A stretch of DNA of 21,231 nt from a virus. The notes under the pieces are model-generated. The model worked only from the letters and a program-made list of their open reading frames with translations. It ran no database searches and was not told the origin of the DNA. Where the stretch lies: positions 1 through 21,231 of the IMG/VR virus record IMGVR_UViG_3300045972_000293. One strand, given 5' to 3'. Positions 1 to 21,231 of the stretch are shown here, in pieces. How positions within the stretch are numbered: the first letter of the stretch is position 1; each line of letters opens with the position of its first letter. The translations under genes and the position numbers were made by a program.

Positions 1-1484
1 GTGTAGGTCGGCCAATTAGACCGGACACCCTCGGTGTAGGTACCATCATCGAGGACTGTCGCCGTTTCGGTAATTGAGTCACCAAAGAGTAGGAAAGACT
101 TTCCGGACCCAGTCCCGCCGCCCGGAGCCGATGACGCTGCCCCCGGGAGCACGATCCCATTGATCGCAGTGATCCCTCGGACAAAACCCTCATAGGAGGT
201 TGATTGCGACCCAAATTCAACCTGCGCGGCAGCGTAATTCCACGCGGCGGAGTTCCTTTGTTTGGGGGAAAAGCGGAAGTAGAAGGAGCCGGCGGGAATG
301 GTGATCAATCCCGCATTAGCTCCGATCGGTAAGAAACCCGCTCCTATAACGGTCGTTTTGTCCGCTGCCAGGAAAACATAGTATCTGTTTGCTGCCGGAT
401 TGGACTGAAGCCCCGATACGTAGAGGGTCGCCTGCCCGCGAACATAAATAAAATCGGAGGTGACAGAGTCCGCCTCGGCCTGCACATTCCCGGTCGCGTA
501 AACCTCCATGCCCGTTGTGACCGAAAGAGGGTCAAAGAGATTTTTCCCACTGGCGCCGTAAGTGAAGGCGGGCGGGGGAGGGAAGTAGATTTGGTACCCT
601 TGCCAGAAACGCACGGCCGGATCAGTTGAATATGCCTCGTAGGCTGTTGCTAACTTGCCAAATTCGACCTGGACCGTGTCATAGTTCCCGGCGCCGGCAA
701 CTCTCTGCCGAGGGGAAAAAACAAACCAGAAGGCGCCGGCGGGGATCGCCACGGTTGCCGCGTTCACCCCGAGGGGGAGGTAAACGTCGAATGCAAGCAC
801 CGTCGAGCCATCCCGCTTATAGAAAACACCATAGCGGCCTGACCCGGGGTTGTTCTGCAACCCGCTGATCATCAAAAAATGTTCGCCAAACACGCATATG
901 GGAGCGCTTACCACCGAGTTTGCCTCGGCCTTGATTGTGCCATCGCCGTAGACTTCGAACCCTGAGGTAACAGTCACCTTGTTAAAGCGGTTTTTCCCCA
1001 TGGTGTCGAGGACTTTGTTTTCGAGGGCAGCTACCCGGTCGAAGCTAGATTGGACCCAGCTTCCACCCCCTGCAGCACCTGACTTTCGATAGGTCCCGTT
1101 TTTAGCCGGGTCCGGATCGTTGGTCACCCAGGCGATTGTCTGGCCTGGGAATTCCAGGTTGGCAGATAAATCGGCGTGAGTTGCAAAACCGATGACGCTC
1201 CCAGATTGGTCGGCAAACCCGTCGATATAGATGCCTGACCGCGTTGCGGAAGATGACCCTATGGTGCATTCCAGGTCATACGTCCCAACGGGCGCCCAAA
1301 AGGAGTAATTCCCCATGCTGTCGGTATGAACCGGGTTTGGCTGGGGCACAGCGCCTGCCTCATCGTACAGCGTGGCTAAAGAGCCATCGATATGTTTCCT
1401 TACGGTGACGGCAACGCCGGCGACAGGCCGCCCGGTGGCGGGATCCGCTATCACGTCCTGGTACTTGTAAACCGTCAACGACAT
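1..1484 (-). CDS. Tail fibre with duplicated module and SGNH/GDSL hydrolase domain (3' end outside window)
   Basis: The frame is open from the ATG at 1484 to the window edge (494 codons); a GGAGGT site precedes the ATG. Residues 1-90 resemble the N-terminus of phage tail fibres, with a TGRPVAGVAVTV stretch, an NPV-TD-G-Y pattern and a YDL end. Two homologous modules of about 120 residues follow (about 164-285 and 314-434). Each starts KN-F and carries SGLQ-NP, an IPAG-F-F-FSP-QR block, a NY-VEFG block and a Y-E end. After a Gly-rich linker comes FLLFGDSIT (464-472), which is block I of SGNH hydrolases, with Ser470 as predicted nucleophile. The remaining SGNH blocks would lie beyond base 1. 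The modules probably bind a surface glycan and the hydrolase may deacylate it; that role is inferred. It directly follows the tail hub gene with no gap. Confidence 0.85.
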   Translation of the reverse strand, partial: MSLTVYKYQDVIADPATGRPVAGVAVTVRKHIDGSLATLYDEAGAVPQPNPVHTDSMGNYSFWAPVGTYDLECTIGSSSATRSGIYIDGFADQSGSVIGFATHADLSANLEFPGQTIAWVTNDPDPAKNGTYRKSGAAGGGSWVQSSFDRVAALENKVLDTMGKNRFNKVTVTSGFEVYGDGTIKAEANSVVSAPICVFGEHFLMISGLQNNPGSGRYGVFYKRDGSTVLAFDVYLPLGVNAATVAIPAGAFWFVFSPRQRVAGAGNYDTVQVEFGKLATAYEAYSTDPAVRFWQGYQIYFPPPPAFTYGASGKNLFDPLSVTTGMEVYATGNVQAEADSVTSDFIYVRGQATLYVSGLQSNPAANRYYVFLAADKTTVIGAGFLPIGANAGLITIPAGSFYFRFSPKQRNSAAWNYAAAQVEFGSQSTSYEGFVRGITAINGIVLPGAASSAPGGGTGSGKSFLLFGDSITETATVLDDGTYTEGVRSNWPTY

Positions 1485-3887
1485 TTAAACCTCCAGCAGA
1501 TCAAGGGTTACGGTGCAGGGCTGCGGGTCCAGGGAGTTTCCCATGACCAGGAACTTCTTCTTGTCGGTCAGCTCTTCCCACTGCGCGCCGGAAACCGGCA
1601 GCATCAGGCCGGTGACTCCGACCAGCTCGCCAGCGGCATACTTGCCCTGGTCGAAATACTGAGGTGGTAGGTTGGACGCCTTCAGCCTCATCTTCGGGGT
1701 AGCAAACCAGTGGTCCATGCGCGTTGCCAGCGCGACGCGCGCTGCGGGCGATGCCCCCCACTTCTCAAACCACTGCTTCTGATAGCCGGGGTTCACCTGG
1801 TATTCGGGATCGCCGGGCGGAACGTCCTTATTGAGCCCCCAGGCGATCTCCGCCGTGTTGTTGATCAGCACGTAGGAGCTGTGGTAGTTCTCGGCGCTGG
1901 TGCCTATCTTGATCGGCTTGCAGGACCAGTAGGCGCGCCAATTGGAACCGCGGCCGGGCTCTGTTGCAGCCGACGAGGTATGTGGCGCCTTGCAGGTATA
2001 GAGAGGACCGCGACCGATGCGCACGTCGCCAACGACATAGTCCTGGCCGGTGAGCCAGTCGGTAGCCCAGTAGGCTCGATGGGCAGCCCCGGTGCCGGGT
2101 GCCGTGGCGGCGCCGGTCTGGTGGGAAATCAGGCAAAACCAGGTGACCGCTGATATAGAAACGCTGTCATTTCGGGAGCAGTCAAGACCTGCAGTCCAGG
2201 CGCCCAGGTCGTTGCCGGTCTGCAGATCATCGTCGTGGCGCGGCTCGTAGTAGATGTGCTGCCGGGTGAAGAGCTCGCCCTGTCCAAGTGCCACGCTCGA
2301 CCAGGTCGCATGGTCGGCCAGCACCTCGCCAGAGATCTCCGCCGTCGCATCGTAGGGCTTGAAGCTGATAACACCATCCGGACGCTGCAGGATGAGAATC
2401 CCCGACAGCACCTGGAGCTCCTCGAGCAGTTTGCTGGCATCTTCCTTGTTGTCTTTGTCGAGCCGGCGGGAGACGTTCCAGTCGCTGCCGGAGTAGGCAC
2501 CGCTGCGCAGGCTGTTGGCCGTGGCCAAATCGATGTAACGCGAGGCGATGCCCACGTACGAGAAGATGTCCAGCATGGCGGTAATGATGTTCACCGCCTG
2601 CCACTCGACGGGCACCACCGTCGCGTCGGTGCGTTCCTCGCCTTCCGGAGTCGATTCCTTGGGTATCTTGGCCTTGGCGAAACGGGACAAGATGGTCCGC
2701 GTCTTGGCGGTGACCTCGCCCCGATAAAGGTCGATGTCCGCGTCGTACCAGAGCCCGGAGAATACCGGCTGGTACTCCGACTCGGACAGGTCCGGAAACC
2801 CGTGCTTCACCGTCACCTGCTTGTTGCGCAATAAACCATCGCGCAGCAGGTTGAAGGTCTCCCTGCGGTAGTAAAGCTTGGGCGAGATTTCACCGGTGGA
2901 CCCGATCTTCATAAGGTCGATCTTGCTGCCCAAGGCGCCTAGGGCGGGGAGCAGCAAAGGCCGGGCGCCCAGGACGGGAGTATCTTCATGCGTGGAAAAG
3001 TAGACCATCTGAGAGTCGCCACCTACTACGGCAATCTCGCGCAAAATAGGCGTGTCCAACCGGGTCGATGAAATAAAAGTGGCCTCAAAATCGTAATACC
3101 GGTAGGGGGCTAGGCTGGTGCCGTCCATCACCTCTCCGAGCTCCGTCCATGTTGCGGCGTCGTTGCTGCCGCGTGCTGTGTAGCTCAGGTTTGCGGAGCT
3201 GGTGCTGATATGGTCGACCCCAAATACCGAAGAGACCGTAGGCACCTCCCCCAGATCGACACTCCTCGTGCGGGTAAAGGCCGTCGGGTAGTAAAGCGTC
3301 TCATGTACCATGACGTAGCTGAAAAACGTGATGCTGCTGCCCGAAACGGCATCGGTGCCGACCCTCGCATAGAGGTGGCCCTTCGGTATGTTAAACGTAA
3401 GCTCGTTGACCAGCGGCTCCAGGTATGACGGGGTCGGCCATTGGACGGTACCGGCAACCCAGGTTATCCCGTCCACGCTGGTTTCGGGCCACACGCTCAC
3501 CAACCCGTCAGACGCCTGGATGTTGTAACGCATGCTGACACGCATCTGCACGCAGCGGTCATTGGGGCAGGGGAAAATTACCGACCGGAACGGCTCCAGG
3601 GGAGCAAGGCCATCCCAGGCACAGCCGAACCACTCGGCGTTTCCGACATAGACGGAGGCGTTCTCATACTGACCCGCGTGTATCTCTGCTCCGTCGGTCG
3701 CCATAATGACGACGCCCGGATCGTCCAGGGGCGAACTCGTATTGATATTGGTGCGGACCGGCCCAGCTTCCCAGTCGGTACGGGTGGTGATCACCTTGTT
3801 GATGGCATTCACGGATTCGACCGACATCAGGAGCACCGGCTGGCGATCCGTGCGGCGGGCGGCCGCTATCCACGCGGAGCTGGTCAT
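1485..3887 (-). CDS. Tail tip/hub protein with CBM5/12-like modules
   Basis: This 800-residue protein sits after the tape measure gene and before the fibre, where siphoviruses encode baseplate or tail hub proteins. The middle (about 330-500) resembles phage tail hub proteins in style but I see no diagnostic motif. Residues about 609-655 match the chitin-binding type 3 (CBM5/12) pattern: W--G--Y--GD, then YTC, HTSS, P--G--W and a YW end. A degenerate copy of the second half of that pattern lies just before it (about 583-608, WFC, HQT, PGTG, RAYW). The N-terminal 300 residues are beta-rich by appearance and unassigned. The start overlaps the upstream stop by ATGA, so translation is probably coupled. 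Function in receptor contact is inferred from position and the module. Confidence 0.75.
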   Translation of the reverse strand: MTSSAWIAAARRTDRQPVLLMSVESVNAINKVITTRTDWEAGPVRTNINTSSPLDDPGVVIMATDGAEIHAGQYENASVYVGNAEWFGCAWDGLAPLEPFRSVIFPCPNDRCVQMRVSMRYNIQASDGLVSVWPETSVDGITWVAGTVQWPTPSYLEPLVNELTFNIPKGHLYARVGTDAVSGSSITFFSYVMVHETLYYPTAFTRTRSVDLGEVPTVSSVFGVDHISTSSANLSYTARGSNDAATWTELGEVMDGTSLAPYRYYDFEATFISSTRLDTPILREIAVVGGDSQMVYFSTHEDTPVLGARPLLLPALGALGSKIDLMKIGSTGEISPKLYYRRETFNLLRDGLLRNKQVTVKHGFPDLSESEYQPVFSGLWYDADIDLYRGEVTAKTRTILSRFAKAKIPKESTPEGEERTDATVVPVEWQAVNIITAMLDIFSYVGIASRYIDLATANSLRSGAYSGSDWNVSRRLDKDNKEDASKLLEELQVLSGILILQRPDGVISFKPYDATAEISGEVLADHATWSSVALGQGELFTRQHIYYEPRHDDDLQTGNDLGAWTAGLDCSRNDSVSISAVTWFCLISHQTGAATAPGTGAAHRAYWATDWLTGQDYVVGDVRIGRGPLYTCKAPHTSSAATEPGRGSNWRAYWSCKPIKIGTSAENYHSSYVLINNTAEIAWGLNKDVPPGDPEYQVNPGYQKQWFEKWGASPAARVALATRMDHWFATPKMRLKASNLPPQYFDQGKYAAGELVGVTGLMLPVSGAQWEELTDKKKFLVMGNSLDPQPCTVTLDLLEV

Positions 3888-4654
3888 GCCACCACTCGGG
3901 AGATGAACGGGATGCGCGGGATGGTGTAGAGGCCCGTCTTCATCACCGGTTCATACTTGTAGCCTTTCTCCGTGTAGCCAAAGTGCACCTCGTCCTGGCT
4001 CGTATCGGGCACCAGAAAGAAACCGCGGGCGGTCTGGATGCAGGCGGCTGCCCAGATGCTGAAGAGGGCCTCCTCAACCGGGGTGATCTGGCCAAACGAC
4101 AGGGAGAATGGCCGGGTTACCTTTGTGGTGACGCTCCCCAGGAACAGGCCGGCGGTGCTGATCAGGTGGGTGCCATCTGCCTGTAGCGGTGCGCTGCAGT
4201 AGCCGTCCTCAAAGAAGGGCAGCAGCGACAGCCCGCCAACCGCAATATGCTTCAGCAGGAACTTGGTCGAGTGGCCTGATATCGACAGCCTAAAGTAGCG
4301 GTAGGTGGCCTGCGCTAACTGGATCCAGACCGCGCCGTCCCGGGGTGCGACCTGTGTGGCCAATGAGGTGAAGGTGCTGCCGTCGTTGGAACCCTGCACG
4401 GCTAGGGACACTCCGTGCAGATCGGCGCCGGCCAGCGCGCAAAATTCGCAGCTCTCCGCTGCACCCAGGTCGATGATGACCGAGGATAGCGCCGTAGTTG
4501 CCGGGCGCCAGCCGTTGCACTCATCGGCCTGCAGCAGATCCACTGCATCGTAGCCGGCGGCCGTTGACGATGCGGAAACGGCCGCCAACGGGCCGTAGGC
4601 TGCAAAGAGAAACGCGGGCTGGGCTGGCTGGCTGATGGATAGGAATTGGGTCAC
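3884..4654 (-). CDS. Tail protein with discoidin (F5/8 type C)-like domain
   Basis: This 256-residue protein starts at a GTG preceded by AGAGG. Residues about 25-140 have the look of an F5/8 type C (discoidin) jelly roll: a changing loop region, VIIDLGA, LAVQGSNDGSTF, then RYFRLSISG. The 'GSNDGSTF' and 'YFRL' blocks are the typical signatures of that fold, which often binds carbohydrate. The C-terminal half (FSLSFGQITPVEEALF onward) is unassigned. It lies between the tape measure protein and the hub, so it is probably a distal tail or tail-tip component. Its end overlaps the hub start by ATGA. Confidence 0.7.
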   Translation of the reverse strand: MTQFLSISQPAQPAFLFAAYGPLAAVSASSTAAGYDAVDLLQADECNGWRPATTALSSVIIDLGAAESCEFCALAGADLHGVSLAVQGSNDGSTFTSLATQVAPRDGAVWIQLAQATYRYFRLSISGHSTKFLLKHIAVGGLSLLPFFEDGYCSAPLQADGTHLISTAGLFLGSVTTKVTRPFSLSFGQITPVEEALFSIWAAACIQTARGFFLVPDTSQDEVHFGYTEKGYKYEPVMKTGLYTIPRIPFISRVVA

Positions 4655-8650: not shown

Positions 8651-8822
8651 GCTGAGTCACCTCCTCGGTGCTGGGTTTGGGATTAGTCTTGCCGCACTTG
8701 CGGGCGACGCCCTGTGCGATGAAGGAATCGGCTTCCTCGGGGTGCACGGAGATCCGGTCGCCGCGGCGGACCTTGCCGTACTTCATGGTGTCGCGGGCCT
8801 GGGTAAACTCGATGACAATCAC
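8643..8822 (-). CDS. Small conserved-looking phage protein, unknown function
   Basis: A 59-residue frame starts at GTG 8822, overlapping the Rz1 stop as GTGA, with AGGAGG four bases upstream. It ends in a TGA that overlaps the start of the tail tube gene. It reads M/V-IVIEFTQARDTMKYGKVRRGDRI, then HPEEADSFIAQGVARKCGK. The lysine/arginine-rich GD-RI strand followed by an 'EEAD-FIAQGVA' helix resembles small phage proteins encoded near head-tail genes, which often end in a helix describing a position lost at 'A--F---G'. No function is assigned. The excellent ribosome binding site and exact coupling on both sides argue that it is real. Confidence 0.75.
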   Translation of the reverse strand: MIVIEFTQARDTMKYGKVRRGDRISVHPEEADSFIAQGVARKCGKTNPKPSTEEVTQHV

Positions 8823-9115
8823 GGCGCCTCCTTGATCGCTTCGTTGTAGAGCCGCAGCACCGTCCGCGAACTTTCCAGGGCGGCCCGGTAGAACTCCAGG
8901 TTGATCAGCACGTCGCGGCGGCCGCGATCATCGAGACAGTATTCCGCCTGCGCTGCGCCCGGCGGGTAGAGCACCACCTGGTACAGGGCCGGATGGGGCT
9001 CTATCAGCAGCTGAGCCGGACGAATACACGGCTTGCAGCAGCCCCCCAGGTATAAAAGGCAGAGGGCGAGAATCGACAAAAACAGGCTTCGGGGCGCTTT
9101 CGATGCGAGACACAT
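8819..9115 (-). CDS. Rz1-like outer-membrane spanin lipoprotein
   Basis: This 98-residue frame begins inside the Rz gene in another frame and extends 109 bases past it. It has a basic N-terminus, a hydrophobic stretch (about 11-23) and a lipobox-like LGGC with Cys26 as the lipidated residue; a second Cys follows at once and another at 30. This is the o-spanin pattern: a small lipoprotein that pairs with the inner-membrane Rz to fuse inner and outer membranes at the last step of lysis. It is longer than typical Rz1 proteins, and less Pro-rich than usual. The -2 position of the lipobox is Gly, which is tolerated but not optimal. Confidence 0.8.
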   Translation of the reverse strand: MCLASKAPRSLFLSILALCLLYLGGCCKPCIRPAQLLIEPHPALYQVVLYPPGAAQAEYCLDDRGRRDVLINLEFYRAALESSRTVLRLYNEAIKEAP

Positions 9116-9347
9116 TGATCTGGCTCTCCAGTTTGATCTGGCCGATGGCTTCGGTGATCTGGTTGGTAAGCTGCTGCATGGCAGCGGCCGACTTCAGCTT
9201 TTCGGTGAGCAGCGCCTGCTCCTGGCGGAGTTGGTCGCGCTCGGCGAAGACTGAGCGGACATACATGCCGGTACCGATCAGGCTAAGGGCCAGCAGGCCG
9301 GCAGCGATCCAGCGCCAGTTTTTGAGCGCGAATGCCAGCGCGGTCAC
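8928..9347 (-). CDS. Rz-like inner-membrane spanin
   Basis: This 139-residue protein starts at a GTG that overlaps the upstream stop (GTGA). It has one N-terminal transmembrane segment (about 10-32, WRWIAAGLLALSLIGTGMYV) followed by a heptad-like helical stretch (about 35-75, ERDQLRQEQALLTEKLKSAA). This is the i-spanin architecture: an N-in membrane anchor with a periplasmic coiled coil. The Rz1 gene lies in an alternative frame over its 3' half, the classic nested arrangement. The C-terminal 40 residues are Gly/Pro/Ser-rich, probably because that DNA is constrained by the overlapping Rz1 frame. Confidence 0.82.
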   Translation of the reverse strand: MTALAFALKNWRWIAAGLLALSLIGTGMYVRSVFAERDQLRQEQALLTEKLKSAAAMQQLTNQITEAIGQIKLESQINVSRIESAPKPVFVDSRPLPFIPGGLLQAVYSSGSAADRAPSGPVPGGALPAGRSAGGILSR

Positions 9348-9526
9348 TTGGCACCCGCTGGGACGTTCATCTTGGTTGCCAGGTCAAGCCCGAAAATGAT
9401 GCCCGTCAGCAGGACCCAGTCGGTCCCGGTGATCTTGCCAAACCAGAGGAAAACGCAGGCGGTCATCCAGGCAACATACTTCTTGGCGATGAATGTTTCA
9501 CCCAACCGTTTCAATCTGTTCAGCAT
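9344..9526 (-). CDS. Small membrane protein, possible holin or phage membrane protein
   Basis: This 60-residue protein has an ATG with GGAGG six bases upstream. It has a basic N-terminus (MLNRLKRLG) and two short hydrophobic stretches (about 18-30 and 37-48) that could form one long or two tight membrane helices. It lies between the amidase and Rz, so it probably takes part in lysis as a second holin or antiholin-like protein. There is no family motif; the assignment rests on position, size and hydrophobicity. Confidence 0.65.
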   Translation of the reverse strand: MLNRLKRLGETFIAKKYVAWMTACVFLWFGKITGTDWVLLTGIIFGLDLATKMNVPAGAK

Positions 9527-9554
9527 CCGTCCCCTCCTTGGTCTGTGCCTGGTA

Positions 9555-9665
9555 TTAATCGCGCAGCGCGTAGCACTTCAGCACGGACTGAACGACGCAG
9601 CTCGGCTTGTTGTTGTGTGCGCACTTCCCGCCGACGATACTGCAGTAGGCGCCCTCTCCACTCAT
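9555..9665 (-). CDS. 36-residue Cys-rich peptide of unknown function
   Basis: A short frame starts at ATG 9665, overlapping the amidase stop as ATGA, and ends with TAA at 9557-9555. It has four cysteines at residues 8, 15, 23 and 31, spaced seven to eight apart, in a peptide ending CYALRD. There is no signal peptide, no transmembrane segment and no clear ribosome binding site, so expression would depend on coupling to the amidase. The regular cysteine spacing suggests a small metal-binding or disulfide fold. I do not recognise it. The chance-frame alternative cannot be excluded, but without it there would be a 135-base gap in an otherwise gapless operon. Confidence 0.55.
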   Translation of the reverse strand: MSGEGAYCSIVGGKCAHNNKPSCVVQSVLKCYALRD

Positions 9666-10081
9666 GCCGCTTGCACCAGTTCGATAAAGTGCTCCCAGGG
9701 GAACAGCTTCCCGGGGCAGGACTTCTCCGCATACTCGTGGTGGCGGTGGATGGACTCGACAGGGAGCCCGGCCAAGCGCAGATAACCGGCGGTCACCTGG
9801 GCCGCGTAGGTGAGCAGCTCCTCGTCGGGCGGGGCCTGGTCGAAGTTGCCGACGATGCAGATCCCCAGGGTGTCGTTATGCCCAATGGTGTGGGCGCCGA
9901 CCATATCGATCGGCCGGCCGGTGAGGGTAGTCAGCTCGCCGTTGATACGCTCGACGCCGGCATGATAGCCGATGTCGGACCAGCCTTTCTCCTGCATGTG
10001 GTAGTGCTTGATGCCATCCCAGTCGACGGTTTGACCGTCCTTGGTCAGGCTATGGTGGATAACTATTCCGATCGGTTTCAT
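9662..10081 (-). CDS. Endolysin, N-acetylmuramoyl-L-alanine amidase (T7 lysozyme/PGRP type)
   Basis: This 139-residue protein is a single-domain amidase that would cut the bond between N-acetylmuramic acid and L-alanine in peptidoglycan. It opens with GIVIHHS (His9/His10), followed by DIGYH (Tyr39, His40), VGAHTIGHND and GICIVGNF. Near the end comes HRHHEYAEKSCPG. Mapped on T7 lysozyme, zinc ligands would be His9, His114 and Cys122 (the His-to-Cys spacing of eight matches), with Tyr39 and Lys120 in the catalytic positions. There is no signal peptide, so it needs a holin to reach the periplasm. A membrane protein gene precedes it and spanins follow, forming a lysis cassette. Confidence 0.92.
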   Translation of the reverse strand: MKPIGIVIHHSLTKDGQTVDWDGIKHYHMQEKGWSDIGYHAGVERINGELTTLTGRPIDMVGAHTIGHNDTLGICIVGNFDQAPPDEELLTYAAQVTAGYLRLAGLPVESIHRHHEYAEKSCPGKLFPWEHFIELVQAA

Positions 10082-15984: not shown

Positions 15985-16179
15985 CTATTTTGTAATTGCA
16001 ATTTGCGCACACCACTCGTTGATGGCGACGCGGGAACCTACCCAGTATCCGGATTTGCTGGTTTTCTTGATCGGCAAGCCCAATTCACGATGCCACTTGA
16101 GCGCCGTAGTCTCGCTCACATTCAAAAAACTACAGATGTGCTTCATTCCTACCAATAAATTCTGGGCTTCCACTGACAT
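15985..16179 (-). CDS. Small HTH DNA-binding protein
   Basis: The product has 64 residues from ATG 16179, which overlaps the terminase stop (TGATG) and has AGGAGG five bases upstream; a GTG at 16185 is less well placed. It contains a helix-turn-helix of the MerR/excisionase type: HICSFLNVSETTALKWHRELGLPIKKTSKSGYWVGSRVAINEW, with the second helix ending in WHR and a hydrophobic wing. Such proteins act as excisionases, terminase small subunits or regulators. Being encoded immediately before the phased repeats, it may bind them and control the head operon. This is inference from adjacency; a role in DNA packaging is the alternative. Confidence 0.75.
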   Translation of the reverse strand: MSVEAQNLLVGMKHICSFLNVSETTALKWHRELGLPIKKTSKSGYWVGSRVAINEWCAQIAITK

Positions 16180-18116
16180 CACCACCTCCTGGATTTGGGC
16201 CGCGTTTCGTTATGGGTTTTCGTTGATTCAAGTTCTTCGATAGACTCTTCAGGCCGGCGCTCATCCCCTATGAAGAGAATATCTGCGCAGGCATAGCTAT
16301 ACTGCCCTATGTCAAAATGGTGGTTGGCGAGTTGCTTGGGATTGACCCAGAAGCCACCCTCATCCTGATACTCGGAGCACATCTGCTTGGCGTATGAGCT
16401 CCAGCGAAGCTGCCCCTCATGGCGGATATCGTGCGGTCCACTCCAGCTTTCCATTTCCTCCTCAGTCAAACCGGCATGGAGATGGATGGCACCAGGGTTA
16501 CCAGGGTCTATCAGTAACTTCCTATTGAGCATGTTCTTATAGTAGGTGGTATCGATGGTGTAGAGCACTAGCCCGCCAGGTATCGATACTCGCTCGCCCT
16601 TGGAGCCCGGATAGAAGTCCAGGCGGGTCCAGCTCACTGGGGTACTTTGCCGTTTCCGTCCCTTTAGGGGGTGCCAAAAGGGGTTTTCGATGCAGAAGTC
16701 GTAGACCTCACGTGTCCGGCTATGTTTGGGGCGGTGGGGGTTAGCGCCGCCGCCGGAGTCGAGGAAACCGGCGCGCGCTCGGTACCTGGCCCCATCGGCA
16801 TCAAACCAATCCCGATCGGCAAGGCGGTTCAAGTGCTCGAAGTGCTCAATAAAGCCGTGGTCAATGACTGAGTTTTCCAGCTCGCGGCCCCAGGCAAAAG
16901 TCTTCACCTCGTAGTAGAAGCCCTGCTGCTGGGTGTCGGCAATGATCAGGATCGAATTTGTATCGCGCGGGACTATGCCGCGCGGCATATGCGGATCTAT
17001 CAGGCGCAGGATGTGGTCCTCTTTATGGGCAACCTGCTGCGGCTCGTATTTTTTCGCACGATAGGAGTTATCCAGCTCGATCTGGTCGGCGACGTCCCCA
17101 GAGCGGGCCTTGAGGATCGCGGCCGCGTATTCTGAGAGCGAGATATCTGGGCAGATGAAAGCGTCGATGATGAAACCGACAGATACTGGACGGTAGACCT
17201 CATTGCGGGCCTTCCAGTCACCCAGGCGCACAGCACGGTCCCGGTCCATATCGTTCCAGAGCACGCCGCAACCTTCACAGGTGTACCTAGCCGACTTGCT
17301 GTTGAGCACCTGCTTGGGATCCACGTTCGGCTGATTCGGAGTCCCGCCAACCAGCTCCAGCTGGCCAGGCCAGATAAGCTGGCTTTCCTTCATCTGCTGC
17401 TCATGTCCGCACGAAGGGCAGACAACGTAGAAGTCGAGCTGCTCCATGCAGGCATCAAAGGCCTTGCTGATCAAGGAGCCGGCGCCGGCCGGGGAGGAGC
17501 ACTTGATCTTCTTTGGGCGGCGGAAGGTCGTCGCGCGCTTTTCCATGAGGTTTAGCGCATGGGTTTCTTTCCCGGCAAGGTCCTCGTTCTTGTCGACCTC
17601 GTCCGCGAAGACATCGTCAGCCGGAAAACTGGAGATCTCGGAAGGGGAGGAGCCCCATACCGGGTAGATCACGGTGCCGTCACGGAAAGCGATGCGGCCG
17701 GCGGTGGTGTCGTCCGGGTTGCTGCTCATCTTTTTGGCGACCGGCTCGCACATGCGATAGATCGGTATCAGCCGGTCCTTAGCGATCTTCTTGGCGAGGT
17801 TCTCCTTGGGGAGCATAACGTACTTAACGTTGCCGCCGCGGTAGACGATGGCATAGAGGTGCATGTTGATGCAGGCGTTGGACTTCCCGCTCTGCGGCAC
17901 GCCCACGATCACGATTTCCTGTACCCAGGACAGGTTGTAGGTATCCATGATCCGGGTGAGGTACGGCGTGATGGAGTTGTCCCAGTCCCCCTGGTGCTGG
18001 CCCAGGGTCACCTTGCGCGACTTGGCGGCGAACTGGGAGACTGTAAGCGGCGGCTTCTCGCGCCAGATCTCCAGCTCGCCCGGATACCATTCGTATGTGA
18101 CGGCGGGTTCGGTCAC
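16179..18116 (-). CDS. Terminase large subunit (lambda gpA family)
   Basis: This 645-residue protein overlaps the small subunit gene by ATGA. Residues 1-200 form the ATPase: Walker A GVPQSGKS (72-79) and Walker B VFADEVD (169-175, Asp172 and Glu173). A zinc-ribbon-like insert follows with CPSC (233-236) and CEGC (280-283). The nuclease half has ILIIADTQ with Asp394 and GFLDSGG with Asp453, the spacing typical of RNase H-like terminase nucleases. It cuts concatemers and drives DNA into the procapsid with the small subunit and portal. Length and motif order match the GpA family used by cos-type phages, so cohesive ends are plausible but not shown. Confidence 0.96.
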   Translation of the reverse strand: MTEPAVTYEWYPGELEIWREKPPLTVSQFAAKSRKVTLGQHQGDWDNSITPYLTRIMDTYNLSWVQEIVIVGVPQSGKSNACINMHLYAIVYRGGNVKYVMLPKENLAKKIAKDRLIPIYRMCEPVAKKMSSNPDDTTAGRIAFRDGTVIYPVWGSSPSEISSFPADDVFADEVDKNEDLAGKETHALNLMEKRATTFRRPKKIKCSSPAGAGSLISKAFDACMEQLDFYVVCPSCGHEQQMKESQLIWPGQLELVGGTPNQPNVDPKQVLNSKSARYTCEGCGVLWNDMDRDRAVRLGDWKARNEVYRPVSVGFIIDAFICPDISLSEYAAAILKARSGDVADQIELDNSYRAKKYEPQQVAHKEDHILRLIDPHMPRGIVPRDTNSILIIADTQQQGFYYEVKTFAWGRELENSVIDHGFIEHFEHLNRLADRDWFDADGARYRARAGFLDSGGGANPHRPKHSRTREVYDFCIENPFWHPLKGRKRQSTPVSWTRLDFYPGSKGERVSIPGGLVLYTIDTTYYKNMLNRKLLIDPGNPGAIHLHAGLTEEEMESWSGPHDIRHEGQLRWSSYAKQMCSEYQDEGGFWVNPKQLANHHFDIGQYSYACADILFIGDERRPEESIEELESTKTHNETRPKSRRW

Positions 18117-18817
18117 TCGGTCTCCACTTTAAAGCTGGTCGCCCGTGCGTACCGATCAAGCCAGGCGTCCAGCTTGCGGTCGTACTCCTCCTGCAGGTCG
18201 GGAATGACCGCCTGCAGGTTGATTTCGTCCATGTCCATGCCGAGGTTGCGCAAGTAGTCCGAGGCCACGTCGACCAGCTGGTCACAGATGCGCGGACCGA
18301 AATTGCTGAGGTCCTTTTTCAGAAAACTGGCAGCGGTGGCGCAGCGCTGCTCGACATCGGAGCGCAGCAGGTAGTTGCCGCGGGTAATCTCGTTGGCCAG
18401 GGATAGCTTGTCGGCTTGCTCCTTGGCTAGGCGCCGCCTGTGGTCTTCCTCGTCGCCGCCGGTCGCCTTCGGGCGGCTGGGATTCTCCCAGGTCTGGTCT
18501 GCGTAAGCCTCGATCTCGGGCGACAGGTATGAACCGTCCTTCTGCCTATGCGGGAAGCCCGGGCGCTCCGCGTGGTTGCGAATGGTGCGGGCGCTCACGA
18601 TGTAGCCCTGCGTGATGATCCAGGTGCAGACCGCCTCGAGGTTTTTGAAACGCTCGCCAGCCTCATCTGCTCCCGCCTGCGCATCTGCTTTAGCGAACGC
18701 GGACTTGGCACCGTTCCACTTCCGGAGATTCTCCAGCGACGGGTTCTCCTGGTACGCCAGGGCAGTCTTCTGGACCGCAGCGGAGAGAATCTCTTTTTCG
18801 GTGGCAAGTTCGGTCAT
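18113..18817 (-). CDS. Terminase small subunit-like DNA-binding protein
   Basis: This 234-residue protein is joined to its neighbours by ATGA overlaps on both sides. The N-terminal part (about 5-50) is a helical hairpin. Residues about 60-110 look like a winged HTH (FKNLEAVCTWIITQGYIVSARTIRNHAE, then FPHRQKDGSYLSPEIEAY), similar in layout to lambda Nu1-type recognition domains. The rest is helical (KEQADKLSLANEITRGNYLLRSDVEQRCATAASFLKKDL), typical of small terminases with a 'R--y----ve' segment and dimerisation helices. It directly precedes the large terminase, so a role in packaging-site recognition is likely. Confidence 0.8.
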   Translation of the reverse strand: MTELATEKEILSAAVQKTALAYQENPSLENLRKWNGAKSAFAKADAQAGADEAGERFKNLEAVCTWIITQGYIVSARTIRNHAERPGFPHRQKDGSYLSPEIEAYADQTWENPSRPKATGGDEEDHRRRLAKEQADKLSLANEITRGNYLLRSDVEQRCATAASFLKKDLSNFGPRICDQLVDVASDYLRNLGMDMDEINLQAVIPDLQEEYDRKLDAWLDRYARATSFKVETE

Positions 18818-19467
18818 TTCAAATCCAGGGGCCGGACTAGGTTGGGCATCTCAGGGTGACGGGCCAGCAGATCGCGTAGCTCCAAGTACATGACTCCGGC
18901 GCAGATATACTGGGCCTCCTCGTCAGAGTCCCCGCTCAAGCTGTCGTACCAGACCGCTCCGTCAACCCGAAGAGGAGCACACCAATACTCGATGTCGGAG
19001 CGGGCTGCATGGTAAGATATCTCGGCGCCCAGGGCGACGATGGTCAGCTCCTTGGATCTTTCCAGAACGGCCGCGCCTGAGCTGCGCCGGGTCATCTCAT
19101 CGATGATGCGCTGCGCCACTACCTGGACATGAGTCGCCTCGCGTAGGATGCCATGCTCGCCGTGGATATCATTGACCCAGAGGGCAAGCTCCAGCTCGCG
19201 GACCTCGCGCTTGAGTTTTTGGAGCATCTCCCATCGCTCGTAGGCTTGCCAGAGCAACTCGGGATACTTGACTAGAGCGACGGCGTACTCCTGGGCAAAC
19301 AGAGAGTCAAAGCCCGCATCTACCCCGTGCCGTGCAACTGCAAGAGCGGTTTGCGACTTTTCCCATACAGCCAGGTATTCGATGACCATATGAGCTAGAT
19401 CGCTCTTACTCTTATTCATCAGGTAGCGATGATTGATTGGACCCCCGCTAAATTCAGCAATACTCAT
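18814..19467 (-). CDS. Phage protein of unknown function
   Basis: I place the start at ATG 19467, which overlaps the upstream stop as ATGA and has GGAGGT seven bases upstream; an upstream ATG at 19497 would lie inside the previous gene and has no site. The 217-residue product is mostly helical and charged, with three Trp-containing helices (AVWEKSQTALAVARHG, LLWQAYERWEMLQKLKREVRELELALWVNDI). No catalytic motif, membrane segment or signal peptide is seen. It ends in an ATGA overlap with the small terminase gene, so it belongs to the packaging transcript. I do not recognise a family. Confidence 0.7.
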   Translation of the reverse strand: MSIAEFSGGPINHRYLMNKSKSDLAHMVIEYLAVWEKSQTALAVARHGVDAGFDSLFAQEYAVALVKYPELLWQAYERWEMLQKLKREVRELELALWVNDIHGEHGILREATHVQVVAQRIIDEMTRRSSGAAVLERSKELTIVALGAEISYHAARSDIEYWCAPLRVDGAVWYDSLSGDSDEEAQYICAGVMYLELRDLLARHPEMPNLVRPLDLK

Positions 19468-19799
19468 TTCAGTACCTCCATGGTTATGCTGGAGCATGCC
19501 GCGCCCATAAAGTCATTCTTCAGGAATCCAATCATCATCTCACGCATCATCTTCCCTTCATCCTGAGGGTAACGGCTCTCCAAGTAGTACGATCCGTCCC
19601 AGGATTCTCGCCAGATGATTCCTTTATCCACTAAAGATGTCACCACTTGACCAGTGCGGCTATCGTTCCACCCAAGCTGGTACTTTATGCAGCTGTACCC
19701 CATACCGCCGATCCCTGAGGGATACCAGCAGCCGAGGCGGTAGACGAGGTGCTGCTCGTCCTTAGACAACGGCATTTCTGGCAATGCAAGCTGGCTCAT
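19464..19799 (-). CDS. Small phage protein, possible winged-helix-like, unknown function
   Basis: This 111-residue protein has an ATG preceded by GAGGAGA. It contains a stretch that could be a winged HTH (DEQHLVYRLGCWYPSGIGGMGYSCIKYQLGWNDSRTGQVVTSLVDKGIIWRESWDGSYYLE): a helix, a turn, a second helix 'SRTGQVVTSLVDKGII' and a beta hairpin with 'WDGSYYLE'. This matches the layout of small transcription factor-like folds, but similarity is by shape only. It is the first gene after the hairpin element downstream of the reverse transcriptase and may begin the packaging transcript. Confidence 0.6.
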   Translation of the reverse strand: MSQLALPEMPLSKDEQHLVYRLGCWYPSGIGGMGYSCIKYQLGWNDSRTGQVVTSLVDKGIIWRESWDGSYYLESRYPQDEGKMMREMMIGFLKNDFMGAACSSITMEVLK

Positions 19800-19893: not shown

Positions 19894-21132
19894 TTATTGG
19901 GCACTACCGACACGTCCTTCCGTGCTGCCGCTGCGTTTAAAGATTTTGGTGAACTTCCCGTCCGCGCAATGCCCCTTACCTAGCGTGATGCGCACTACCC
20001 GGGCCCTCGCATGGTGGCTGTGGTTCGACTGACGTAACAACCCCAGGTAGCTGTTCGCGCTGCGCATCAGGTCGTCTCCGGTTTTACTGGTTACGGTCCT
20101 AATCGCGTTGTTGTAGGTGGTGCGCCTCAGCACTCGGCGCCAGGGCTTTATGATTTGGCCTACGAAATCTACCCCACGGTCAATGGGCTGCAGGATCGTT
20201 TTGCGCGGGTTGAGCGACATGCCAAGCCGCTCGGAGACAAAGGCGCTGATTTTTCCGGCGGCCTGGCTCAACCACTCGGGCGATTCATGCAACAGCACCA
20301 TGTCGTCGACGTAGCGGATGTAATGCCGGGCCCCTATCTGGTGCTTCACGTACTGATCGAGCGGGTTCAGGTAAACGTTGGCAAAAAACTGGCTGCTCAG
20401 GTTACCAATGGGTAGCCCCAGGTGCGATGGCTGGTTAAATAGGCTCTTATGGTGAGGTATTAGAGCCATCATCCTGGGCGAAGCCTTCAGGTAAACATCG
20501 CCGCGCGGATCGTGGAAGAGCACAACCTGGGTTAGCCATAAGGTCCACGGCCCCACTATCTTGCTGGCAAGCAGTTCATACAGGATGTTCTTGTCGATGC
20601 TGACAAAGAAGTTGGCCAGGTCGAGCTTCAGGTAGAAAGCGCGGCGAATCCAGTTCTGGGTGATGCTCCGAACCTTGTGCTCCAGCCGGGTTGCACCATA
20701 AAGGGTCCCACGGCCGGGAATGCAGGCGCAACTGTCGGCAATGAATGAACGGTGGAACGTTCCGGAGATCCGGTTATAGAGAAGGTGGTGTACTACCCTG
20801 TCCCGGAAGTCTGCCGCCCATACCTCGCGCGGCTTAGGGCGGGTTACCACAAAGCAGATGGATGTGCCGGGACGGTAGCTGCCGTCTACTAGATCCCGGT
20901 ACAGAGCCATGATGTTGCGCTCCAGGTTCGCCTCAAATCTGAGAGCGTTGACGGTGGTACGCTTGTGCCTGCGGCAGTCGTAATAGGCACAGAGCAGCTC
21001 GTCCACCGTCAGGGGTGCATCGCTATAATCTGCGGACCGCCCTGACTCCGAAATTGTTGTTCTTATTGTTGTTGTTCTGGTTGCCATTGTTGAAATTGAT
21101 GTTCCAGGCGTTGTTGGAGTAGGAGGCGTCAT
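19894..21132 (-). CDS. Diversity-generating retroelement reverse transcriptase
   Basis: The 412-residue frame has the DGR reverse transcriptase signature rather than that of retrons or group II introns. It has PREVWAADFRDRVVHHLL (101-118), KLDLANFF (169-176, catalytic Asp171), GLPIGNLSSQFFANVYLNPLDQYV (239-262), and YVDD (274-277, catalytic Asp276/Asp277), then NPRKTI and a VDFVGQII thumb-start. The GxxxSQ form of motif 4 is the mark of DGR enzymes. It copies TR RNA with errors at adenines, and the cDNA replaces the variable repeat of a target gene. The first 38 residues, Thr-rich, come from the TR read in another frame, so translation probably starts downstream of the TR or this tail is unimportant. 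Candidate starts are ATG 21132, ATG 21087 and GTG 21006; none has a clear ribosome binding site. Confidence 0.93.
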   Translation of the reverse strand: MTPPTPTTPGTSISTMATRTTTIRTTISESGRSADYSDAPLTVDELLCAYYDCRRHKRTTVNALRFEANLERNIMALYRDLVDGSYRPGTSICFVVTRPKPREVWAADFRDRVVHHLLYNRISGTFHRSFIADSCACIPGRGTLYGATRLEHKVRSITQNWIRRAFYLKLDLANFFVSIDKNILYELLASKIVGPWTLWLTQVVLFHDPRGDVYLKASPRMMALIPHHKSLFNQPSHLGLPIGNLSSQFFANVYLNPLDQYVKHQIGARHYIRYVDDMVLLHESPEWLSQAAGKISAFVSERLGMSLNPRKTILQPIDRGVDFVGQIIKPWRRVLRRTTYNNAIRTVTSKTGDDLMRSANSYLGLLRQSNHSHHARARVVRITLGKGHCADGKFTKIFKRSGSTEGRVGSAQ

Positions 21133-21142
21133 GTCGTGCTAT
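21023..21142 (-). repeat. DGR template repeat (TR), outer borders approximate
   Basis: On the minus strand a frame from 21142 to a TAG at 21025-21023 reads as the C-terminus of a C-type-lectin-fold DGR target: DASYSNNAWNINFNNGNQ, then four Asn, Lys, three Asn and FGVRAVRRL. It contains 14 AAC/AAT codons, the codons that can become many amino acids when adenines change. The frame is closed by a TGA at 21145-21143 and has no start, so it is a template and not a gene. The GC-rich end before the stop (21049-21029, encoding GVRAVR) corresponds to the unmutated initiation region. The true borders depend on a variable repeat not present here. The TR overlaps the 5' end of the reverse transcriptase frame. 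Confidence 0.88.
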
Positions 21143-21162
21143 TCACGTCGCAGGGCAGAAGG

Positions 21163-21231
21163 CTAAGCCGATCCATCCCGAAACTGCGCCACGACCTTGC
21201 GGGTCCACTGCCCGCCGGTTTCGCTGCTGGC
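21163..21231 (-). CDS. 3' end of an upstream gene, possibly Avd (frame uncertain)
   Basis: The last bases of the window hold the end of something outside it. One minus-strand frame is open from the edge to TAG 21165-21163 and reads ASSETGGQWTRKVVAQFRDGSA. DGR accessory (Avd) proteins often end near the TR with a G-W-containing helix, and this fragment would fit loosely. The other two frames are also open, to TGA 21145-21143 and TGA 21131-21129 (the latter overlapping ATG 21132 as ATGA), so the coding frame cannot be decided from 69 bases. I prefer the first because its composition is the most protein-like. Confidence 0.3.
   Translation of the reverse strand, partial: ASSETGGQWTRKVVAQFRDGSA

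Follow-up and report, generated by a model that had tools for sequence, protein, structure and literature searches.

A phage diversity-generating retroelement with a putative RT-15 RNA scaffold upstream of its template repeat and a reverse transcriptase frame that overlaps the template

Mechanistic work on diversity-generating retroelements (DGRs) rests largely on the element of phage BPP-1, where a spacer RNA on the 3' side of the template serves both to hold the enzyme and to prime cDNA synthesis. In this element (mtd-avd-TR-Sp-brt; RF03022 Phage_DGR), the template repeat (TR) comes right after avd, with a gap of about 0 nt, and a 144-nt Sp lies 3' of the TR. Five other phage DGRs are organised like BPP-1, with avd-TR gaps of 6-30 nt and gaps of 131-162 nt between the TR and the reverse transcriptase (RT) gene. 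According to a 2022 review, the structured RNA of DGRs trails the template (PMC8867640), and the paper on the reconstitution of the BPP-1 system places it between TR and brt (PMC12875486). The DGR of Bacteroides uniformis phage F2 (Bacuni) has targets of the DUF1566 type (PMC8143477). Here we describe a phage DGR whose putative RNA scaffold precedes the TR and whose RT frame runs across the TR.

The retroelement in the window and the reading frame across its template

The window, that is, the whole stretch of DNA analysed, is the IMG/VR virus record IMGVR_UViG_3300045972_000293 of 21231 bp (G000). Read on the minus strand from the right end, it contains a match to the 3' part of an RNA of the RT-15 family, the TR, the RT gene, two ORFs without family match, a small terminase-like ORF, and a GpA-type large terminase:

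21127..21231, minus strand: match to the 3' part (model positions 90-192) of the RT-15 structured RNA (RF03018), putative DGR scaffold; cmscan 58.0 bits, E=4.4e-13
21130..21023 (about), minus strand: TR with 14 AAY codons; relatives have a TR in the same position with A-specific variable repeat (VR) partners
21028..21037, minus strand: GTCCGCAGAT, IMH-like 3' end of the TR, common to the relatives' VRs
21132..19894, minus strand: ORF of the DGR reverse transcriptase, 412 aa; RVT_1 E=9e-16, 8ub7 RT E=2e-41
19464..19799, minus strand: 111-aa ORF between the RT and terminase genes; no family match
18814..19497, minus strand: 227-aa ORF; no family match, two partial viral relatives
16179..18817, minus strand: small terminase-like ORF and GpA-type large terminase; GpA_ATPase E=1e-44, GpA_nuclease E=3e-30

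The small terminase-like ORF was called by its position only, and the family match applies to the large terminase alone. Beyond the terminases lie head-, lysis-, and tail-like genes, as judged by position and sequence. On the tail side, an 800-aa protein (1485-3887, minus strand) shows a weak match to the carbohydrate-binding family CBM_5_12, slightly below the Pfam cut-off. An incomplete 494-aa protein (3-1484, minus strand), which is cut by the left contig end, contains an internal repeat and ends in a segment that by eye resembles an SGNH hydrolase (LLFGDSITE). The 227-aa neighbour ORF was dropped as a marker because its only two relatives are both partial.

A sequence-only reading of this DNA had recognised a DGR-type RT with the motifs GNLSSQ and YVDD and a TR with 14 AAY codons, and had placed the element upstream of the terminase genes. 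The sequence bears out the motifs and the codons, and the order RT, two ORFs, small terminase-like ORF, GpA terminase agrees with the proposed placement. Damage to catalytic residues, which the same reading had named as a possible objection, was not found in the window: the GxxxSQ of motif 4 (LPIGNLSSQ), the YVDD, and the motif-A aspartate (KLDLANFF) are intact, and the RT is full length. Two features had gone unmentioned: the stretch 21231..21127 corresponds to the 3' half of a structured RNA, and the RT frame traverses the TR. The closest solved structure by sequence is the reverse transcriptase 8ub7 with its sister entries (E=2e-41), entries that we take as the DGR complex of BPP-1. NCBIfam models for group II, retron, and DRT enzymes all remained far under their cut-offs (best group II match 74 bits vs 300, retron St85 50 vs 235), and the top PADLOC match was a generic RT model, in a listing without cut-offs. 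On the basis of its sequence, the element in the window is a DGR with an apparently intact RT.

For comparison, the best 80 of the 368 IMG/VR stretches that encode an RT relative were analysed (RT 58-82% identical), together with 80 further loci from GTDB, whose genomes are mainly those of Burkholderiales, Pseudomonas, and other Proteobacteria. Geobacteraceae MAGs account for the two closest GTDB loci, with RT identities of 82 and 73%. The scored set comprises the 151 loci with a locatable RT core.

The TR, whose bounds were taken from TR-VR homology in the relative L003, overlaps the 5' part of the RT reading frame; its translation is ASYSNNAWNINFNNGNQNNNNKNNNFGVRAVRRL. From an ATG at 21132 the ORF stays open across the TR, which contains an in-frame ATG at 21087-21085, and the conserved RT core (AYYDCRR) begins at 20988. 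Among the relatives, the distance from the GTCCGCAGA of the TR to the RT core takes about nine lengths from 28 to 55 nt, with the same remainder modulo 3 in 93 of 95 clusters. When the spacing changes are placed on the RT tree, 30 of 31 are multiples of three, and the lone frame-breaking change (37 to 53) occurred in L158/L167, a lineage with an ATG downstream of the TR. By reading, L032, L060, L147, L152, and L162-L164, which had been set aside in the spacing analysis, also have an in-frame ATG a short way upstream of the core.

Such a constraint could also arise if the RT started after the TR and the conserved frame reflected RNA spacing instead of translation. GTG or TTG occurs between TR and core in 49 of 93 clusters and ATG in 4, the window itself has a GTG six codons before the core as a possible late start, and no clear Shine-Dalgarno sequence was seen by eye before the TR-internal ATG. 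However, a start (ATG, GTG, or TTG) that lies beyond the TR and leaves eight or more codons ahead of the core is present in only 21 of 92 clusters and absent in the other 71. Furthermore, a late start fits poorly with the common remainder of about nine different spacing lengths, and the frame-breaking change falls in just that lineage which has an ATG after the TR. We consider this alternative unlikely. In 17 clusters, including that of the closest relative (L088), a stop codon in or near the beginning of the TR closes the frame on its upstream side, and all 17 have an ATG inside the TR. Given the conserved spacing, the scarcity of late starts, and the TR-internal ATGs, translation of the RT probably starts inside the TR or upstream of it, with the ATGs at 21132 and 21087 as candidate starts in the window. 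The TR would then be dual-coding. In one relative (L073), a DNA-methyltransferase-like gene (9084-10013, plus strand; by eye) lies between TR and RT, and RT-15 plus TR (8744-9037) are found ~0.9 kb from the RT.

The RT-15 leader and its pairing with the template

The match of the window's leader to RT-15 (58.0 bits) is below the gathering cut-off of 82, probably because the contig end removes the 5' side of the RNA, of which only half is present. In the relatives the leader matches the full model: RT-15 was full-length in nine of nine relatives scanned (123-186 bits), and the match ends where the TR begins. Between avd and the TR lie 125-195 nt in nearly all relatives, and a consensus fold derived from 60 aligned leaders contains 27 pairs, 19 of them with compensatory change. 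A 22-aa frame at the right edge of the window (ASSETGGQWTRKVVAQFRDGSA), considered as a gene end, was rejected because it lies in this conserved non-coding leader matched by RT-15.

A search for RT-15 that was independent of the RT revealed nine places above the cut-off, in eight genomes, among 195 genomes of one family; one of these places was previously known. Twelve above-cut-off places were checked, the four query genomes included, and eleven of them precede a TR end and an RT motif that share a reading frame. The twelfth, in L179, had no match to the TR/RT search pattern. The control genomes contained no RT-15. Rfam lists RF03018 ('RT-15') as an sRNA gene only; in the relatives it is tied to a DGR including the TR, with covarying pairing to the TR 3' end, and this tie indicates a probable function for the family. 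In L163, a locus that has an RT-15 DGR too, a Proteo-phage-1 RNA (RF03044; 1324-1401, plus strand) and tRNA genes were observed.

A nearly invariant ATCTGG in the leader is unpaired in the consensus fold, and its ATCTG is complementary to CAGAT at the TR 3' end of the relatives. As an invariant ATCTG cannot covary, covariation was sought in the flanking extension of this pairing. In 92 clusters, the second flanking pair is T-A (54), G-C (21), or C-G (9). It is canonical in 93% compared with 52% in shuffles, none of 5000 shuffles being as high, and on the RT tree 11 of its 17 changes are compensatory vs 2% (maximum 10%) with shuffled labels. Flanking positions 3 and 4 give weaker support for pairing, and position 1 often has A opposite C. 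The search used the first occurrence of ATCTGG, which is wrong in a few loci (e.g. L122), but wrong picks should lower the pairing score and not inflate it. The invariant TCTGG is also complementary to a TR-internal CCAGA found in 76% of the TRs. The leader strand may thus form an additional pairing within the TR, the covariation test having addressed the pairing with the TR 3' flank only. In the window's own phage the anti-TR strand falls outside the contig, and the pairing was read from the relatives.

Alternatively, the scaffold might occupy its usual 3' place and overlap the RT gene, with the RT-15 leader being a separate regulatory RNA. The TR-RT gaps of 131-162 nt in BPP-1 and the five other phage DGRs, and the structured RNA that trails the TR in the review (PMC8867640), would be in line with this possibility. 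In the family studied here, however, the RT core follows the TR end after only about 28-55 nt. The window lacks the BPP-1 arrangement of a structured RNA on the 3' side of the TR, some 140 nt ahead of the RT; in it, TR and RT frame overlap. The possibility that the RT gene conceals a 3' spacer was likewise rejected, as the conservation of synonymous sites is not raised beyond the TR: 3' of the TR it drops to the RT-gene average within a few codons, which argues against a second conserved RNA overlapping the RT gene there. RT-15, by comparison, lies immediately next to the TR, with whose 3' flank its unpaired strand covaries. A scaffold in the 3' position thus appears quite improbable, and the pairing of the leader suggests that the 5' RNA serves the purpose that the spacer has in BPP-1, with the order permuted.

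Variable repeats, target genes, and a proposed mechanism

The sequence-only reading had proposed to search for copies of the TR that differ specifically at adenines. Among the relatives, at least one VR was found in 140 of the 151 scored loci. All of the 295 VRs are on the TR strand, and they differ from their TRs at 4596 of 10055 TR adenines (46%) compared with 721 of 21610 other bases (3.3%). Typically they lie about 0.65 and 1.2 kb upstream of the TR, some up to 8 kb. The VR-bearing ORFs are small (median 191 aa), carry the VR at the C-terminus, and have membrane-like segments in 18 of 269 cases. The two that were tested by Pfam, both from L003, are Lcl_C proteins, and two others are annotated as 'lectin fold'. 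The order in L003 is Lcl_C gene, Lcl_C gene, bAvd (PF22296), leader, TR, RT. Burkholderia phage Magia and Pseudomonas phage Haboob have the order avd-TR-RT, with an annotated Avd-like protein and with upstream VR genes that are annotated or were detected. In L033 (5057-6084, plus strand) and L091 (3057-4084, plus strand), extra VR-bearing small ORFs occur about 4-4.5 kb upstream of the TR; judging from these, one TR may have up to four target genes. Two type II hammerhead ribozymes (RF02276; 6597-6677 and 7410-7475, plus strand; 55 and 63 bits) were seen upstream of the DGR targets in L003.

In the window, whose right edge is only ~100 nt past the TR, no VR was found. A VR inside it was ruled out by scanning both strands, where the best match at non-A positions elsewhere (49%) equals the background; both tail ORFs were scanned, and the statement of the sequence-only reading that they lack a matching VR proved correct. 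A leader-motif scan for a contig that is near-identical to the window and reaches further right returned only L002 and the record of L003. Because the window ends within the avd-TR interval as known from the relatives, its own targets are expected 0.5-1.3 kb past the right end. One of two alternatives offered earlier, a target just right of the window, gains support from the relatives, whose VRs occupy the TR strand ~0.65 and ~1.2 kb upstream. With the nearest RTs 82% identical, we infer that avd and the targets of this phage lie just beyond the right contig end.

The second alternative was a distant tail fibre of the same phage, brought near by circularisation of the genome. Many phage DGRs, such as that of BPP-1 with mtd, target tail proteins, and the tail genes are at the far left of the window, where the 494-aa tail-side ORF (3..1484) is incomplete. 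However, neither tail ORF of the window has a VR, and pattern scans of the whole records of 20 relatives detected, besides the TR, VRs only in the cassette or upstream of it. (The scan was blank for the records G017 and W03, although L078 and L084 inside them have a TR and VRs.) The short VR-bearing ORFs, with Lcl_C in those tested, do not fit this explanation either, and we regard it as very unlikely. In the annotated or inspected relatives, the cassette is situated in the early or lysogeny part of the phage, away from tail genes. In L003, a Mu-like phage, it lies among early genes after the Mu-type transposase and GemA/Mor. The ORFs that follow it in L088 resemble a methylase, an integrase, and, at a distance of about 6 kb, a terminase (by eye). 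In Magia, Shewanella phage vB_Sb_QDWS, and Haboob, the neighbours of the cassette include integrase, methylase, recombination, or repressor genes. The cassette is thus without a fixed tie to packaging or tail genes. As targets, prophage-expressed or particle-associated ligand-binding proteins are favoured over a tail fibre.

We consider it very probable that the window element is the DGR of a temperate-type phage, cut by the right contig end, which has a permuted RNA and an overlapping RT gene and functions as follows. The full cassette would carry on one strand at least one Lcl_C-fold target gene ending in a VR, followed by avd, the RT-15 RNA, the TR, and the RT; comparison of the relatives supports these parts and the adenine bias of the VRs, and places avd and the targets of this phage beyond the contig by inference. 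A single transcript would run from avd into the RT gene. Its RT-15 segment would fold 5' of the TR and presumably hold the RT-Avd complex as an RNP. The unpaired ATCTG would anneal to the TR 3' end, as the covarying leader-TR pairing supports, and cDNA synthesis would presumably be primed at this duplex. Copying would then proceed across the TR toward the scaffold, with errors opposite adenines, and the mutagenised cDNA would replace the VRs of the upstream target genes. Translation of the RT would begin inside or upstream of the TR, in agreement with the frame constraint seen by comparison, its start codon being one of the candidates named above. A decayed, inactive DGR remnant, as the incomplete contig without visible VR and avd might suggest, is hardly credible, as the RT is full length with GNLSSQ and YVDD intact, the TR and the 3' half of RT-15 are intact, and the relatives are abundant and have VRs that diverged almost only at adenines.

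If this mechanism is true, the placement of the scaffold on the opposite side of the template in a widespread family of proteobacterial phages would demonstrate that permutation of the DGR RNA is possible. An RT gene that reads through the template would also suggest how template use and RT synthesis might compete. As the targets are no obvious tail fibres, a concrete question is what phages gain from diversifying small lectin-fold proteins.

Comparison with known DGRs

The family shares with BPP-1 an RT with GxxxSQ and Y.DD, an Avd-like protein (in the relatives), TR/VR pairs with adenine-specific differences, and a scaffold strand complementary to the TR 3' end. In a stem search of BPP-1, AGGTGGT/ATCACCT ranks first; this stem lies next to the priming adenine A56. 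Unlike BPP-1, the family has a structured RNA of 125-195 nt 5' of the TR, an RT frame over the TR, and a target that is no obvious tail protein. RT-15 had no match in BPP-1, and Phage_DGR (RF03022) had none in the relatives scanned. Homology between RT-15 and the BPP-1 Sp was rejected for this lack of cross-matches between RF03018 and RF03022; all that is shared, and loosely, is a GGTC by the anti-TR strand in BPP-1 and one other phage.

Bacteroides uniformis phage F2 resembles the window family in its 5'-type spacing, with 126 nt between avd and TR and 36 nt between TR and RT. In addition, its leader sequence GTTATCTGTG pairs with TGCAGATAAC at the TR end in a 10-bp stem that includes two G-U pairs. 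It differs from the window family by an RT that is only about 35% identical and by having no RT-15 match. We see an even chance that RT-15 is the scaffold of a second, permuted DGR RNA architecture, which by spacing and pairing would also exist in F2. In this architecture the scaffold would precede the template, the ATCTG would fold back on the TR 3' end, and the template would encode the RT start, so that translation and template use share nucleotides.

Magia, vB_Sb_QDWS, and Haboob have RTs that are 57-63% identical and the same order of TR and upstream VR genes, and RT-15 was found in Magia and Haboob, the two with an annotated Avd-like protein. They are different phages, however, whose cassettes are in early or lysogeny modules and not directly before terminase genes. 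As far as the literature consulted shows, a 5' scaffold combined with an overlapping RT frame is a variant other than the described standard DGR, of which an earlier description is possible. As a DGR, the window element is, judged by its sequence, a member of a large phage family.
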